Shown here in pieces: positions 18,534-31,419 of a stretch of DNA of 31,419 bases; positions within the stretch are counted from its first letter, which is position 1, and each line of letters begins with the position of its first letter. The stretch comes from a virus. The translations under genes were made by a program, and so were the position numbers. A model generated the notes under the pieces. The model had not been told where the DNA came from. It did no database searches and was given only the letters and a program-made list of their open reading frames with translations. The stretch is from IMG/VR virus record IMGVR_UViG_3300038701_001684, positions 1-31,419 of that record; one strand, given 5' to 3'.

Positions 18534-18596
18534 ATTTAACCAGTTGCTCCAGTCGATGCCTCGCTTCACTCGCCACGCCTGAGCATGGCGTTCCCC
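18534..18596 (+). other. attC site 1
   Basis: R'' ATTTAAC (18534-18540), R' GTTCCCC (18590-18596), 63 bp. Left arm TGCTCCAGTCGATGCC pairs with right arm GCCACGCCTGAGCA, leaving unpaired C and A on the left arm. R'' is the exact complement of front core GTTAAAT at 17959. Confidence 0.8.
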
Positions 18597-18630
18597 AGAC
18601 CGCTCCGCTGCGCTCCGCGGTCCGGGGAAC
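18589..18630. repeat. 42-bp exact repeat, copy 1: ORF-less mini-cassette body
   Basis: Identical to 19371-19412. It runs from front core GTTCCCC through a GC-rich hairpin to R'' GGGGAAC, with only 27 bp between cores, so no gene fits. The sequences beyond both cores differ completely from those of copy 2. Confidence 0.9.
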
Positions 18631-19303: not shown

Positions 19304-19378
19304 ACGTAACCATCACCACCAGCCGATTCGCTCAGTCGCTGGCGCTCCTTCGCTCCCGGCTGTGTCTGGTCGTTCCCC
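19304..19378 (+). other. attC site 4
   Basis: R'' ACGTAAC (19304-19310), R' GTTCCCC (19372-19378), 75 bp. Left arm CACCAGCCG against right-arm complement CACAGCCG leaves an unpaired C on the left arm. Precedes the second copy of the 42-bp mini-cassette. Confidence 0.8.
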
Positions 19379-19412
19379 AGACCGCTCCGCTGCGCTCCGC
19401 GGTCCGGGGAAC
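19371..19412. repeat. 42-bp exact repeat, copy 2: ORF-less mini-cassette body
   Basis: Identical to 18589-18630. Bounded by GTTCCCC (19372-19378) and GGGGAAC (19406-19412); flanked by different attC bodies on both sides. Confidence 0.9.
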
Positions 19413-20322: not shown

Positions 20323-20380
20323 CACTAACCAGCAACACCATCCGATTCGTCACCGCTGCGCGGCCCCTCTCGGCTGTATC
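20323..20380 (+). other. Half attC site h1 (left half kept)
   Basis: R'' CACTAAC (20323-20329) and the left arm are present, followed by a 26-bp apical sequence (20352-20377). The site then ends after three bases at the next R'' (20381), so its right arm and R' are missing. The 26 bp recur exactly at 23298-23323. Confidence 0.7.
20352..20377 (+). repeat. 26-bp exact direct repeat, copy 1
   Basis: Starts ACCGCTGCGCGGCCC and ends CTCGGCTGT; identical to 23298-23323. Both copies are attC apical regions. Confidence 0.9.
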
Positions 20381-20704: not shown

Positions 20705-20980
20705 GTGGCTCTCTCCCATAGTCTTGCCACGCTGCTGTTCCATTGGCATGAAACCGCATCCATCATCGAAATCTGACCTGTCGCTGCGAATCATCGCGTC
20801 ATAGCACTCCGGATGCTGATGCCCGCTAAACATTTCTTCATCATGAACTCCGGATCGATACTGCGCTTGCGCACCCTTCTCGATCCACTCACCGCACCAC
20901 TCGCAGCGGTGTTTCTTGCGGCAGGTAACCGTTTTGTTTGTAAGTTCAATGCTCATGCCATCCTCGAAATGGATACTCAA
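20699..20980 (-). CDS. Small zinc-binding protein, last gene of recombination block
   Basis: 93 aa. A probable zinc site: Cys20, Cys26, Cys29 ([14 protein letters not shown]) plus His/Cys in HQHPEC (~54-59). Similar small Cys-rich proteins follow SSB genes in many siphoviruses. ATGA overlap with the ssb stop. The TAA stop lies in core GTTATGC of attC site 8, as for a cassette gene. Exact role unknown. Confidence 0.65.
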
Positions 20981-21411
20981 AACGGAATATCGTCATCAAA
21001 CCCATCATCCGGCATCGGCGCAGACTGTGGTGCGTCAGATGATCCCTGCTGCCGTGGTGCGTCACCCGACCCGCCGCGACTGTCCAGCATCTGCATCTGA
21101 TCCGCAACAATCTCAGTTGTATAGCGATCCTGACCGCTCTGGTCCTGCCACTTGCGGGTAGTCATGCGGCCAGAGATATACACCTGCGATCCTTTTGACA
21201 GATATTTACCCATGATCTCCGCCAGTTTCCCGAACGCGACGATGCGTACCCATTCGGTTTTTTCCTTCTTCTCGCCAGTCCCTTTGTCCTTCCAGGATTC
21301 CCCGCAGGCTATGGATAGCGTAGCTATCGCTTTCCCGTCTTGGGTGTATCGGGTCTCAACGTCTTTGCCAAGTCTTCCGATGAACTGGCATAAATTCAGG
21401 TCTTTAGCCAT
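20977..21411 (-). CDS. ssb: Single-stranded DNA-binding protein
   Basis: 144 aa. A full OB-fold: [30 protein letters not shown] at the N-terminus, then [32 protein letters not shown] and the [12 protein letters not shown] strand. A Gly/Gln/Ser/Ala/Pro-rich linker follows (~112-135), and the acidic tip DDDIPF recruits partner proteins. It starts at the last base of the exonuclease gene's stop. Coats ssDNA during phage recombination and replication. Being in a cassette-bounded block is unusual. Confidence 0.93.
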
Positions 21412-23280: not shown

Positions 23281-23297
23281 TTTCTAGCTCCTTCGCA

Positions 23298-23323
23298 ACC
23301 GCTGCGCGGCCCCTCTCGGCTGT
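23298..23323 (+). repeat. 26-bp exact direct repeat, copy 2
   Basis: Identical to 20352-20377. Here it is the apex of half attC site h2. Confidence 0.9.
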
Positions 23324-24342: not shown

Positions 24343-24513
24343 CTAGCCTGCCACGCCGCGCCCTGCCACGCCCTGCCGAGCCGCCGAGATAACCTCGTCC
24401 GGCGTCCTGGTTGACCGAATCCATTTACCATTGACCCGGACAAACACCATGCCGCGAAGACCGATCTTGTAGAGCAGTCCGTCGATAAAGGCTTGTGGGT
24501 TGGAGTGGGTCAT
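24343..24513 (-). CDS. Hypothetical early left-operon protein, 56 aa
   Basis: ATG 24513 overlaps the upstream stop (ATGA). MTHSNPQAFIDGLLYKIGLR then GMVFVRVNGKWIRSTRTPDEVISAARQGV, a small helix-strand-strand-helix protein. The C-terminal codons run into a GC-rich imperfect tandem repeat (QGVAGRGVAG). Function unknown. Confidence 0.55.
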   Translation of the reverse strand: MTHSNPQAFIDGLLYKIGLRGMVFVRVNGKWIRSTRTPDEVISAARQGVAGRGVAG

Positions 24514-24776
24514 GCCTGGTCCTGCTTCAGCATCGTCAGCAACATGCCGCACAGCGCCTCAGCGGCCCCGGTGCGGATAAAATAGTGCTCCTGCATGACT
24601 GCCATTCTCCGGCCCACCTCGGACAGATACGCCATCGCGAAATTCTTCTTGCTCTCATCGTTGAGCATTTCCGGGGCGATCCCGTCGGCAGCCATCAGTT
24701 CCGCTGTCCACCGCGCATTTGCCTCAATGTCAGCTGCGGATATCCCGGTGATTGCTGCGAGTTCTGCGCTGGTCAT
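24510..24776 (-). CDS. First gene of PL operon, 88 aa, unknown function
   Basis: Starts ~25 bases downstream of the predicted PL transcription start; AGGACG precedes ATG. Helical: SAELAAITGISAADIEANARWTAELM resembles a small helix-turn-helix; then SKKNFAMAYLSEVGRRMAVMQEHYF and a hydrophobic end ALCGMLLTML. It occupies the place of lambda N, but lacks an arginine-rich N-terminus, so it is not an N-type antiterminator. Confidence 0.6.
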   Translation of the reverse strand: MTSAELAAITGISAADIEANARWTAELMAADGIAPEMLNDESKKNFAMAYLSEVGRRMAVMQEHYFIRTGAAEALCGMLLTMLKQDQA

Positions 24777-24808: not shown

Positions 24809-24837
24809 ATAATAGGCCGCGTATTACCCTATGTCAA
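24809..24837 (-). promoter_or_regulatory. PL, leftward early promoter
   Basis: Minus strand TTGACA (24832-24837), 17-bp spacer, TATTAT (24809-24814). Spacer length and hexamers are the same as in PR at 26123. Drives the left operon through the cassette array. Confidence 0.88.
24810..24826 (-). promoter_or_regulatory. Operator OL1
   Basis: 17-bp TAATAGGCCGCGTATTA overlapping PL -10. Consensus with the other four sites is TAATAGG-N3-CCTATTA. Confidence 0.85.
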
Positions 24838-24851
24838 TAGGGCGCGTATTA
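24835..24851 (-). promoter_or_regulatory. Operator OL2
   Basis: 17-bp CAATAGGGCGCGTATTA overlapping PL -35. Starts exactly 25 bp from OL1, as OR2 does from OR1. Confidence 0.82.
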
Positions 24852-24910
24852 TTTTTAAAAAAAATACTGTGAGAGAATGGAAAGTGTGAAATCAAACCAC
24901 CGGAGGAGAC

Positions 24911-25393
24911 ATGAAAAGGACTGCAATGATCGCGCTCTCACTGGCCCTTATCGCCACAACCAGCCAGGCTGGAGGGGTCAAGAAATGGACCGACGAGGAC
25001 GGGAATGTCCATTTTGGCGATACCCCGCCGCCCAGTCAGTCGGCCAAGCGTATCCAGGTGCGCGACCCAGCTACCGGCAACGGATCTATGGTGCGGCCAG
25101 GGTTGATCGAGATCGGGCGGCGGCCGGCCGCAAAAAGAGTGGCCGACCAGGATAGGGGGTACGGTGACCGGCTGCGCTACCGAAACGCCACGGTAAAGGG
25201 CGAGGTCCTGAGCGGCATGACCCAGCGGGAAGTTGAGCGGGCCTGGGGTCGGCCTGACGAGGTTGACGTAAGTGATAGCGGGTCTGGGCGCACGGAACGC
25301 TGGTGGTGGTGGGACCACTCTGGGAGCAGGATCAAATCGAAGTACGTTCGGTTCAAAGACGGGCGGGTGACGAACTGGAGCATAGACAGGTGA
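24911..25393 (+). CDS. Secreted DUF4124 protein with SmpA-like C-terminal domain (cargo gene)
   Basis: 160 aa. Signal peptide MKRTAMIALSLALIATTSQA, then DUF4124 (residues ~22-60, KKWTDEDGNVHFGDTPPP). The C-terminal region VLSGMTQREVERAWGRPDEV ... GRTERWWWWDHSGSRIKSKYVRFKDGRVTNW fits the SmpA/DUF2845-like fold of envelope proteins. RBS GGAGGAG. It lies between PL and cI, facing right, opposite to cI. DUF4124 proteins are chromosomal in gammaproteobacteria, so this is a probable lysogenic-conversion gene acting in the periplasm. No clear promoter of its own could be assigned. Confidence 0.72.
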   Translation: MKRTAMIALSLALIATTSQAGGVKKWTDEDGNVHFGDTPPPSQSAKRIQVRDPATGNGSMVRPGLIEIGRRPAAKRVADQDRGYGDRLRYRNATVKGEVLSGMTQREVERAWGRPDEVDVSDSGSGRTERWWWWDHSGSRIKSKYVRFKDGRVTNWSIDR

Positions 25394-25395
25394 CG

Positions 25396-25446
25396 GGCTC
25401 ACGGTTTGAGCCTGCGAAGAATTTAGAATCCTCCTTCTGCAGGAGG
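25396..25446 (+). promoter_or_regulatory. Tandem hairpins, second one masking a ribosome binding site
   Basis: Hairpin 1: GGCTCA-CGGTT-TGAGCC (25396-25412). Hairpin 2: CCTCCT-TCTGC-AGGAGG (25430-25446); its 3' arm is the Shine-Dalgarno of the gene at 25453. A fold like this would block initiation unless opened. Seen in sequence; regulation inferred. Confidence 0.6.
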
Positions 25447-25452
25447 TGAAAC

Positions 25453-25686
25453 ATGGAAAAAAAGAAAAACACTGGATGTGGATATTGCCCGGAGCGGGCA
25501 AGGTTGTTATCCCTGATAGGCAACGCTGTTGCGCTCTATCTGCGCATTGAATGGAACGGGCGGAACGGCGCCGGGATCGAGTCTATCCTGAATGACATCA
25601 AGATGGTGTCTGCAGGCCTGGCCCGCGCGTCCCTTGCCTGTCAGTGTCAGACTCCAGGGCCTTCCTCCCGGCGGGATTCTGGATAA
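25453..25686 (+). CDS. Small hypothetical protein convergent with cI
   Basis: 77 aa. A near-perfect SD (AGGAGG, six bases before ATG). CGYC motif at residues 9-12, then a helix (RARLLSLIGNAVALYLRIEW) and a Cys-containing C-terminus. It overlaps the last ~90 bases of cI on the other strand. The strong SD and hairpin favour a real gene; overlap with cI lowers certainty. Function unknown. Confidence 0.45.
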   Translation: MEKKKNTGCGYCPERARLLSLIGNAVALYLRIEWNGRNGAGIESILNDIKMVSAGLARASLACQCQTPGPSSRRDSG

Positions 25687-26074
25687 AATCTACATCGCCG
25701 CCTCGCTCAACATCAGCATATAAAACCGTCAATACCGCCCGCCGCGCGTCTGCGCTGGCGGCGCGGTATAGTTCGATGAGCATACCTATCTCATCTGATT
25801 GTCCGGTGCCTAACGATCCTGACAGGACCTCTAAGTCAGGGTGGATATCTCTGGCGTCCACCTGCAGGGCGATGGCAAATCTCATGGCATACACGATGCT
25901 GATGGGCGATTTGCCGTTGATCATGTTCCCCACATAGCCCTGCGTGCGCCCCCAGGAGTCGGCCAACGCCTGCTGCGTCAGCCCTAGCGGTCGCGCCCTT
26001 TTGTTCCAGATGCGCCGTAGGTTTTGTTGGGCGATTTGCTCGCTTTCTGTCAGTGGTCTGGTTTTCATTGCCAT
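25598..26074 (-). CDS. cI: CI-type prophage repressor without protease domain
   Basis: 158 aa from ATG 26074 (ATG 26068 also possible). HTH XRE domain spans ~12-75: LTQQALADSWGRTQGYVGNMINGKSPISIVYAMRFAIAL, with the recognition helix around TQGYVGNMI. The C-terminal part is short and helical (SDEIGMLIELYRAASADARRAVLTVLYADV), with no S24/LexA peptidase Ser-Lys dyad region. It therefore cannot be induced by RecA-mediated autocleavage. Faces cro across the OR region, as in lambda. PRM is weak and gives an almost leaderless transcript. Binds the five 17-bp operators (inferred). Confidence 0.8.
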   Translation of the reverse strand: MAMKTRPLTESEQIAQQNLRRIWNKRARPLGLTQQALADSWGRTQGYVGNMINGKSPISIVYAMRFAIALQVDARDIHPDLEVLSGSLGTGQSDEIGMLIELYRAASADARRAVLTVLYADVERGGDVDFIQNPAGRKALESDTDRQGTRGPGLQTPS

Positions 26075-26084
26075 AGATCAAATT

Positions 26085-26090
26085 TTAATA
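26085..26090 (-). promoter_or_regulatory. PRM -10 element, candidate maintenance promoter
   Basis: TATTAA on the minus strand, about 11 bases upstream of the cI ATG; no good -35 at proper spacing. A start seven bases on would leave a leader of only a few bases, as for lambda PRM cI mRNA. Weak promoter implies need for activation. Confidence 0.4.
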
Positions 26091-26102
26091 CGTTTGGTAT
26101 TA
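26086..26102 (+). promoter_or_regulatory. Operator OR3
   Basis: 17-bp TAATACGTTTGGTATTA. Matches the operator consensus in its outer bases and overlaps PRM. Starts 23 bp from OR2. Confidence 0.65.
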
Positions 26103-26108
26103 AGTGCC

Positions 26109-26125
26109 GAATAGGCACCCTATTG
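26109..26125 (+). promoter_or_regulatory. Operator OR2
   Basis: 17-bp GAATAGGCACCCTATTG, near-perfect inverted repeat AATAGG-N5-CCTATT. Overlaps the PR -35. Confidence 0.85.
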
Positions 26126-26151
26126 ACATTGTGTAATAGGCCGCCTATTAT
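26123..26151 (+). promoter_or_regulatory. PR, rightward early promoter
   Basis: TTGACA (26123-26128), 17-bp spacer, TATTAT (26146-26151). Drives cro and the replication operon. Confidence 0.9.
26134..26150 (+). promoter_or_regulatory. Operator OR1
   Basis: 17-bp perfect palindrome TAATAGG-CCG-CCTATTA lying in the PR spacer and -10. Starts 25 bp from OR2. Confidence 0.9.
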
Positions 26152-26178: not shown

Positions 26179-26418
26179 ATGAACCTGAAAGACTTCTTCG
26201 AAAACCGGCTTGCCACTCAGGGTGAGATTGCAAAGGCAGTCGGCGTCACCCAGGGGTACGTATCCCACTGGTGCAAAGACAGGTCCCCGATCCCGGCAGA
26301 GAAGGTAATCCCTCTTTACCGGGCGACAGAGGGCCGGGTGTCTCCGCATGAAATGCGTCCGGACATTTACCCGGACCCCGAGTGGGCACCGCCGATAGCC
26401 GATGAATCTGCCGCATGA
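26179..26418 (+). CDS. cro: Cro-like repressor
   Basis: 79 aa from ATG 26179 (AGGTGAGG upstream). A single HTH: MNLKDFFENRLATQGEIAKAVGVTQGYVSHWCKDRSPIPAEKVIPLYRATEGRVSPHEMRPDIYPDPEW. The 'SPHEMRPDIYP' phrase is characteristic of Cro/YdaS-type phage regulators. Its recognition helix VTQGYVSHW resembles the CI segment TQGYVGNMI, in line with shared operators. It is the first gene after PR and is followed by hairpins and a terminator as in lambda. Confidence 0.82.
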   Translation: MNLKDFFENRLATQGEIAKAVGVTQGYVSHWCKDRSPIPAEKVIPLYRATEGRVSPHEMRPDIYPDPEWAPPIADESAA

Positions 26419-26445: not shown

Positions 26446-26451
26446 TTAACA

Positions 26452-26487
26452 ACCCACCCCTGGCAACAGGGGCTGGGTCTTTTTTTT
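26452..26487 (+). terminator. Intrinsic terminator after cro (tR1-like)
   Basis: Stem ACCCACCCCTG / CAGGGGCTGGGT with loop GCAA, followed by C and eight T bases. Strong rho-independent terminator between cro and the CII-like gene; genes beyond need readthrough or antitermination, or leak. Confidence 0.9.
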
Positions 26488-26534: not shown

Positions 26535-26876
26535 ATGAATCAGCTCTCCATAGATTTCGACCGCGACATCACCAAGGCGTATTCGTCATGCCGGGCCTAT
26601 GTCGAGAACCGGGTCCATCACCAGGGCCGGTCACAGAAATCCATCGCGGCAGACATGGACTACTCACCCAGCCAACTCTCAAACAAGCTCGCTCAGGGGG
26701 ATGGCACCAGCGCACGTTTCACCCTGGATGACCTGGAGCTTTTTATGCAGGTCACGGGGGATATCGAGCCGGTCAAGTACCTGGTCGCGAAATACCTCTA
26801 CCGGCAAGCCCCGGAAGAGATCGAGAGGCAGATTGAAGCCTTACAGAAGAAGCTTGCCGAGGTAAAACACCAGTGA
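26535..26876 (+). CDS. CII-like phage regulatory protein
   Basis: 113 aa. HTH at ~30-75: GRSQKSIAADMDYSPSQLSNKLAQGDGTSARFTLDDLELFMQVTGD, matching the CII/CP76-type regulator family, followed by a C-terminal coil (PEEIERQIEALQKKLAEVKHQ) suited to oligomerisation. Position after cro and tR1 equals lambda cII. Probably activates lysogenic promoters; target sites were not identified. The next gene starts at GTG 26873. Confidence 0.7.
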   Translation: MNQLSIDFDRDITKAYSSCRAYVENRVHHQGRSQKSIAADMDYSPSQLSNKLAQGDGTSARFTLDDLELFMQVTGDIEPVKYLVAKYLYRQAPEEIERQIEALQKKLAEVKHQ

Positions 26877-31019: not shown

Positions 31020-31283
31020 ATGACATTTGACGCAGATAGTTTTAAACAGCCTGAACTACCGACGCCTGACATATTTGAAGATGACGTACTAATTGAATCG
31101 TCTCGTTCACCGGCTGGTTCAGCAATTGAGCCTGACCCAATAAACGTGGTGTTTGCAATGCTAACCCGTGCGAGAGATGCGGGAATGGTTGTGGAGGTGG
31201 TTGCTACCTACGGAGATTTAAGAGCCGCAGGCAACAGCGTGGTTGAAGCGTCACGCCACGCTTTGCGGGAATGGGATTGCTGA
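31020..31283 (+). CDS. Hypothetical protein, 87 aa
   Basis: GAGGTAACGAGCG precedes the ATG. An acidic, disordered N-terminal half (PTPDIFEDDVLIESSRSPAGSA) and a helical C-terminal half (INVVFAMLTRARDAGMVVEVVATYGDLRAAGNSVVEASRHALREW). No family recognised. Between the HTH protein and a NinB-like gene, so part of a nin-like region. Confidence 0.5.
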   Translation: MTFDADSFKQPELPTPDIFEDDVLIESSRSPAGSAIEPDPINVVFAMLTRARDAGMVVEVVATYGDLRAAGNSVVEASRHALREWDC

Positions 31284-31339
31284 ACGGAGTAATAACAAAC
31301 CCTTGAATACTTTTTAATAAATATTCACCGGAATAGAGC

Positions 31340-31419
31340 ATGAGAGCATTCACCATCCAAGATCACAGCGGTATCCAAGAGCGCATGCGGGCCGTATTCG
31401 AGACCGTCAAGGCGGCTCT
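31340..31419 (+). CDS. 5' end of a NinB-like recombination gene (partial)
   Basis: 26 residues remain: MRAFTIQDHSGIQERMRAVF then ETVKAA. The opening resembles lambda NinB-type recombination mediators, which start with a short strand then an amphipathic helix; position after the helicase matches the nin region. It runs out of the window, so the call is tentative. Confidence 0.4.
   Translation, partial: MRAFTIQDHSGIQERMRAVFETVKAA

Follow-up and report, generated by a model that had tools for sequence, protein, structure and literature searches.

The closest described system to the locus analysed here is that of the CP-933P/Rac type, which consists of a repressor (PaaR2 or RacR), YdaS and YdaT. 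CP-933P of E. coli O157:H7 has been called lambda-like: its PL boxes are the same as those of PR, its OL sites resemble those at OR, and its peptidase-less CI equivalent, PaaR2, has been reported to octamerise (PMC8630535). Twin promoters and matched OL and OR operators are therefore known features, since the CP-933P/Rac type has them. PaaR2 has also been described as not reactive to mitomycin C.

We analysed a viral DNA stretch of 31,419 nucleotides (the window). Its switch locus is of this Rac/CP-933P (RacR/PaaR2-YdaS-YdaT) kind and is very probably a temperate-phage immunity region built on a lambda-type OR/OL switch. The features are:

24510-24776, minus strand: first ORF of the PL (early-left) operon
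24809-24837, minus strand: PL promoter, TTGACA-17-TATTAT, 11/12 to consensus, directed leftward at the early-left operon; forms with PR the top inverted pair of the window
24810-24826, minus strand: OL1 operator, TAATAGGCCGCGTATTA (plus-strand letters), overlapping the PL -10 box
24835-24851, minus strand: OL2 operator, CAATAGGGCGCGTATTA (plus-strand letters), overlapping the PL -35 box
24911-25393, plus strand: DUF4124 cargo gene in the OL-OR interval, convergent with cI; N-terminus signal-peptide-like by eye
25453-25686, plus strand: small ORF, 77 aa, with a strong AGGAGGTG ribosome site; 3' end overlapping the 3' end of cI; no family match
25598-26074, minus strand: cI repressor, 158 aa, with a lambda CI-type N-terminal domain (1-81), a short helical C-terminal tail and no S24 peptidase domain
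26082-26110, minus strand: candidate PRM promoter, TCGGCA-17-TAAAAT, expected start about 26074-26075
26086-26102, minus strand: weak OR3 operator, TAATACGTTTGGTATTA, covering the PRM core promoter, at the position of the third site in relatives
26109-26125, plus strand: OR2 operator, GAATAGGCACCCTATTG, overlapping the PR -35 box and abutting the PRM -35 box
26123-26151, plus strand: PR promoter, TTGACA-17-TATTAT, 11/12 to consensus
26134-26150, plus strand: OR1 operator, TAATAGGCCGCCTATTA, overlapping the PR -10 box
26179-26418, plus strand: cro (YdaS / Xfaso1-Cro type), 79 aa from ATG 26179 with AAAGGTGAGG just upstream; start in the ORF list GTG 26170
26451-26487, plus strand: intrinsic terminator between cro and cII, in the position of lambda tR1 (-20.8 kcal/mol, z -2.8)
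26535-26876, plus strand: CII-like regulator (Phage_CP76 / phrog_101)

In lambda, OR1 and OL1 lie over the -10 boxes of their promoters, OR2 and OL2 over the -35 boxes, and OR3 over PRM. As read from the sequence, PR, PL and PRM of the window are in the same register: the -10 boxes of PR and PL fall under OR1 and OL1, the -35 boxes under OR2 and OL2, and PRM under OR3. The genes cI and cro diverge with matched operators between them, and a second cluster of the same specificity lies over PL past cI. An earlier note on this DNA had assigned TTGACA-17-TATTAT to both PR and PL, which we confirm on opposite strands, and had put OL and OR about 1.3 kb apart with cI and cargo genes in between; the clusters, which flank cI, measure 1.25-1.32 kb apart and enclose cI, the 77-aa ORF and the DUF4124 gene. 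The centre of OR2 lies at about -42/-43 from the expected PRM start. This start falls at or next to ATG 26074, and the promoter position, together with a distance conserved in relatives, supports the prediction that cI is leaderless.

All five operator coordinates of the earlier note were correct (centres: OR1 26142, OR2 26117, OR3 26094, OL1 24818, OL2 24843), and the equal centre spacing that it gave for OR1-OR2 and OL1-OL2 was indeed measured as 25 bp in both; OR2 and OR3 are 23 bp apart. Calling all five sites matched, in turn, was an overstatement: the exact AATAGG-N3-CCTATT palindrome is found at OR1 and OR2 only, one arm reads AATACG in OL1 and likewise in OL2 (one mismatch each), and OR3 has three mismatches. 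Scored in the 31-kb window with a matrix made from the four good sites, these reach 20.5-26.4 bits and OR3 11.6 bits, which places OR3 at rank 6, with one background site slightly above it. We call OL3 absent because the best separate site past OL2 scores only -5.4 bits. The window thus departs from the three OL sites of lambda, and most relatives likewise have two.

The repressor resembles lambda CI in its DNA-binding half. The N-terminal arm is part of the alignment of the two proteins, which spans residues 1-81 (E 1e-7 single, 2e-17 by profile), and the DNA-binding part of the AF2 model (pLDDT about 88-97) matches operator-bound lambda CI with a Foldseek probability of 1.00. The model is confident only in that domain; the C-terminal part is poor (pLDDT 41-63), with the tail predicted helical. 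In lambda numbering, taken from the alignment, Q33, D38, Q44, G48 and N52 are kept, and K4 is changed to T, S45 to G and G46 to Y. A Pfam search of CI returned the HTH domain only and no S24 peptidase/dimerisation domain, and in an alignment with relatives that bear S24, the GDSM motif and everything downstream of it are absent from the window CI. The S24 C-terminal domain, a lambda trait that serves RecA-stimulated self-cleavage and oligomerisation and is not universal in lambda-type switches, is accordingly missing. Because CI has 158 aa and is without the lambda C-terminal domain, its cooperativity, looping and SOS induction cannot be taken to have the basis that they have in lambda. Foldseek matches of the tail to Stl-type repressors had E above 0.01 in a low-confidence region and were set aside.

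Cro scores 58 bits against the YdaS family PF15943 (cut-off 30). The CII-like protein gave no match to a YdaT family, its family matches being CP76/phrog_101. Further down, the PL operon encodes a phrog_21613 protein, a YqaJ exonuclease and the ORF at 20977-21411. A search at OL for a rightward promoter of the DUF4124 gene yielded only weak 8/12 candidates, and no toxin-antitoxin match was found in the window. Small secreted or lipoprotein-like genes adjoin cI in several of these phages (loci L015/L016, L033 and L041), the DUF4124 gene, on the strand opposite cI, being the case of the window.

Four single proteins (CI, Cro, the CII-like one and the phrog_21613 one) and an alignment of CI served as queries and together retrieved nearly 200 viral loci. 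A CI with the same N-terminal domain occurs in 100 of the sequences examined, the window included, with 41 distinct N-termini. Past the far end of cI a site pair is present in 34 of the 40 distinct loci with enough flank, and most of them are also paired between cI and cro. In total, the 40 loci hold 92 operator pairs as opposed to 0.6 in locally shuffled copies, counts that are not independent, as the site pattern was picked after some of the relatives had been viewed and several of these are close kin. Two loci (L059 and L100) are doubtful members of the set; precise numbers are not needed for the conclusion. The spacing of paired sites within clusters is a constant 23-25 bp across the family. 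Counted from the cI start codon, OR sites of relatives typically lie at -73 to -75, -49 to -50 and -26 to -28, and those of the window at -75, -50 and -27 from ATG 26074 (the comparison itself counted the window from the second ATG, 6 bases on). Since the distances in the window match the near-constant ones of its relatives, they support both OR3 and the leaderless start of cI.

Phages with a short CI (132-166 aa) and phages with an S24-bearing CI have this layout in common. Behind one N-terminal domain, and with the same operators, two kinds of tail occur, one short and helical (L123, L154, L155, L162, L175, L195, L032), the other S24 (L124, L129, L169, L196, L165), as if C-terminal domains had been exchanged while the switch layout stayed. 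In L123 and L154, cI alone lies between OL and OR, at about 0.5 kb, and the layout is the same. Single-protein searches of viral and genome contigs found no close relative of CI, whereas the CI alignment query succeeded; a search of genome contigs with the CI of L032 also found no close relative, and a whole-region megablast against phages gave no match. A PR-like DNA pattern is by itself no proof of kinship, because in viral contigs it also retrieved a chance coding match (L010) and three contigs whose repressor is of an unrelated S24 type (L011-L013). The latter three have operators (TAATACGATGCGTATTA) that resemble these, and their TATTGACA / -10 overlap is the same.

Half-sites are alike within a phage and unlike between phages, and their differences go with those of the CI arm and recognition helix. 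AATACC pairs with MEKKK arms, AATAGC/ATTAGC with KRK, NRK or KRR arms, and AATA-S-G occurs only with the TQGYVGNM helix, which is unique to the window CI among the compared loci. Position 7 is G in nine of the ten window half-sites; the other lambda-type loci mainly show C or T there, and G makes up no more than half in any of them (L165). This co-variation is a correlation, and it offers the best available evidence that the window CI reads the window sites. Position 6 tends to C where the arm has K at lambda position 4 (MEKKK, RKK) and to G where it has R or T; arm residue and position 6 apparently form a readable arm/operator code, with the arm alignment of the KRK group being uncertain. CI and Cro of the window share the helix start TQGYV. 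By analogy, and from this shared start, Cro would bind the CI operators as well; AATAGC-type sites occur in other phages whose Cro helix is TQGYV as well, so that the shared motif is weak evidence for Cro at the same sites.

The lambda-type switch that the earlier note proposed is supported by the CI DNA-binding domain, a YdaS-type Cro, a CII-like gene, the geometry of PR, PL and PRM and the co-varying operators of relatives. Operators over the -35 and -10 boxes of PR and PL, a third and weak OR site over PRM and a lambda-type CI N-terminus all belong to this design. Judged by sequence, there is a strong case that CI binds the operators, and repression of PR and PL by CI as well as a contest of CI and Cro at OR are strongly supported. 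In a lysogen, OR1/OR2 and OL1/OL2 would be occupied by CI dimers that block PR and PL and keep both early operons off. CI on OR2, beside the -35 box of PRM, would probably aid transcription of the leaderless cI, activation of PRM from OR2 being plausible. OR3, lying over PRM, is the likely site at which Cro, and CI in excess, would switch cI off; lytic growth would follow where Cro prevails.

AT-rich inverted repeats might, in principle, reflect chance or a generic promoter resemblance, and a loose search allowing three mismatches would agree with that, as it found 12 matches in the window where 8.3 were expected. Being at chance level and not significant alone, this count was discarded as evidence. 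In the 31,419-base record the strict pattern AATANGNNNCNTATT is limited to four places, OR1, OR2, OL1 and OL2, and its reversed control has none, so the scan of the rest of the phage that the earlier note had called for leaves the consensus confined to the two clusters. A pattern-free test compared all inverted 42-mer pairs in the window with those of four dinucleotide-preserving shuffles. The best pair of the 31.4-kb contig is PR/PL, identical at 36 of 42 positions, the shuffle maximum being 28, and this is decisive for the reality of the match between the PR and PL operators. Refuted by this unbiased test, the strict pattern and the conservation in relatives, the chance explanation retains a negligible probability.

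How the two clusters of the lambda-type switch cooperate is a separate matter. OL and OR could act independently, with one CI repressing two early promoters and no looping, and we lean slightly towards this reading: each cluster covers the -35 and -10 boxes of its own promoter, which would suffice for repression, and the lambda oligomerisation domain is missing. The 23-25 bp pairing of sites across the family speaks against fully separate action, as it suggests at least cooperativity between neighbours. The full lambda mechanism, in which CI octamers close a 1.3-kb OL-OR loop, whereby repression becomes tighter and CI can also turn PRM off, has in our view somewhat less than an even chance. 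Two clusters stand 1.25-1.32 kb apart on either side of cI, the CI tail is predicted helical, and PaaR2 of CP-933P, which lacks the peptidase too, forms octamers in solution and has both an OL and an OR (PMC8630535). Against a loop stand the loss of the domain that forms tetramers and octamers in lambda, the lack of an OL3 as partner for OR3, and the poor model of the CI C-terminus (pLDDT 41-63). The spacing by itself proves nothing, because the same layout is seen in L123 and L154, where OL and OR are about 0.5 kb apart and enclose nothing but cI. By analogy, then, looping in the window is possible. Cleavage in the SOS response is an unlikely inducing route, by analogy with PaaR2 and its described indifference to mitomycin C. 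A broader reading of the lambda-type switch, which we put forward as speculative and rather doubtful, is that a peptidase-less CI holds both clusters by its short helical tail and is released other than by RecA cleavage. The family would then swap C-terminal domains, cleavable or not, and keep the operator architecture, the changed arm and recognition helix (T4, Y46 and N49 in lambda numbering) having set the new specificity AATA-S-G.

Elsewhere in the contig, 18589-18630 and 19371-19412 are identical 42-nt G+C-rich self-complementary copies (CGTTCCCCAGACCGC...GCGGTCCGGGGAAC) 782 bp apart, and the early-left operon contains a 32-nt direct repeat (20346-20377 and 23292-23323, 94% identical). 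The linear 31.4-kb contig begins at an apparent capsid/protease gene (1-39; other end 31283-31419). Since packaging genes are not seen in it, the genome is probably incomplete.

Like lambda, the window has 17-bp operators, three of them at OR, sites on the -35 and -10 boxes of PR and PL, OR3 over PRM, a CI N-terminal domain with an arm, a tR1-like terminator and the gene order cI-cro-cII. It differs in a CI without the C-terminal peptidase/oligomerisation domain, a Cro of YdaS type, the half-site AATAGG/AATACG, two sites at OL and an OL-OR distance of 1.3 kb. In lambda this distance is about 2.3 kb. With CP-933P/Rac, the window shares a short CI equivalent without peptidase, a YdaS-type Cro, PL boxes equal to those of PR and OL sites like those at OR. 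Its CII-like third gene stands where CP-933P has YdaT, and its repressor gene, leaderless in CP-933P, is predicted to be so here from promoter position. At OL, CP-933P carries three sites to the window's two. Its repressor has a toxin-antitoxin pair as neighbour, whereas the window gave no toxin-antitoxin match, and the cargo genes of the window read rightward and converge on cI. A relative in an E. coli prophage (L155) combines an annotated YdaT-family gene and a RelB-type antitoxin with OR/OL pairs and a short CI whose N-terminus is of the same family. Rac-SA53 (dicA/dicC, KU052037) is the top-ranked annotated phage for CI (39% over 4-84), and its Cro is among the closest (35%). It resembles the window in its short CI and OR2/-35 overlap; unlike the window, it has the half-site AATAGTC, and no OL pair was found with the pattern used. 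Similarly, L032 (IMG/VR 3300002145_000107) has a peptidase-less CI (132 aa, 28% identical), a CII-like protein that is 53% identical, and matched OR and twin OL sites, there 2.1-2.2 kb apart, but a different half-site, AATACC, and different cargo.

The kind of switch is therefore known and widespread, and what is new here is the operator sequence and the cargo. The window offers a clean switch of lambda geometry whose repressor lacks the cleavage/oligomerisation domain. As cleavable and non-cleavable CIs of its relatives share operators and layout, the need for the C-terminal domain in OL-OR systems becomes directly testable, and so does the way in which changes in the CI arm and recognition helix set operator specificity.
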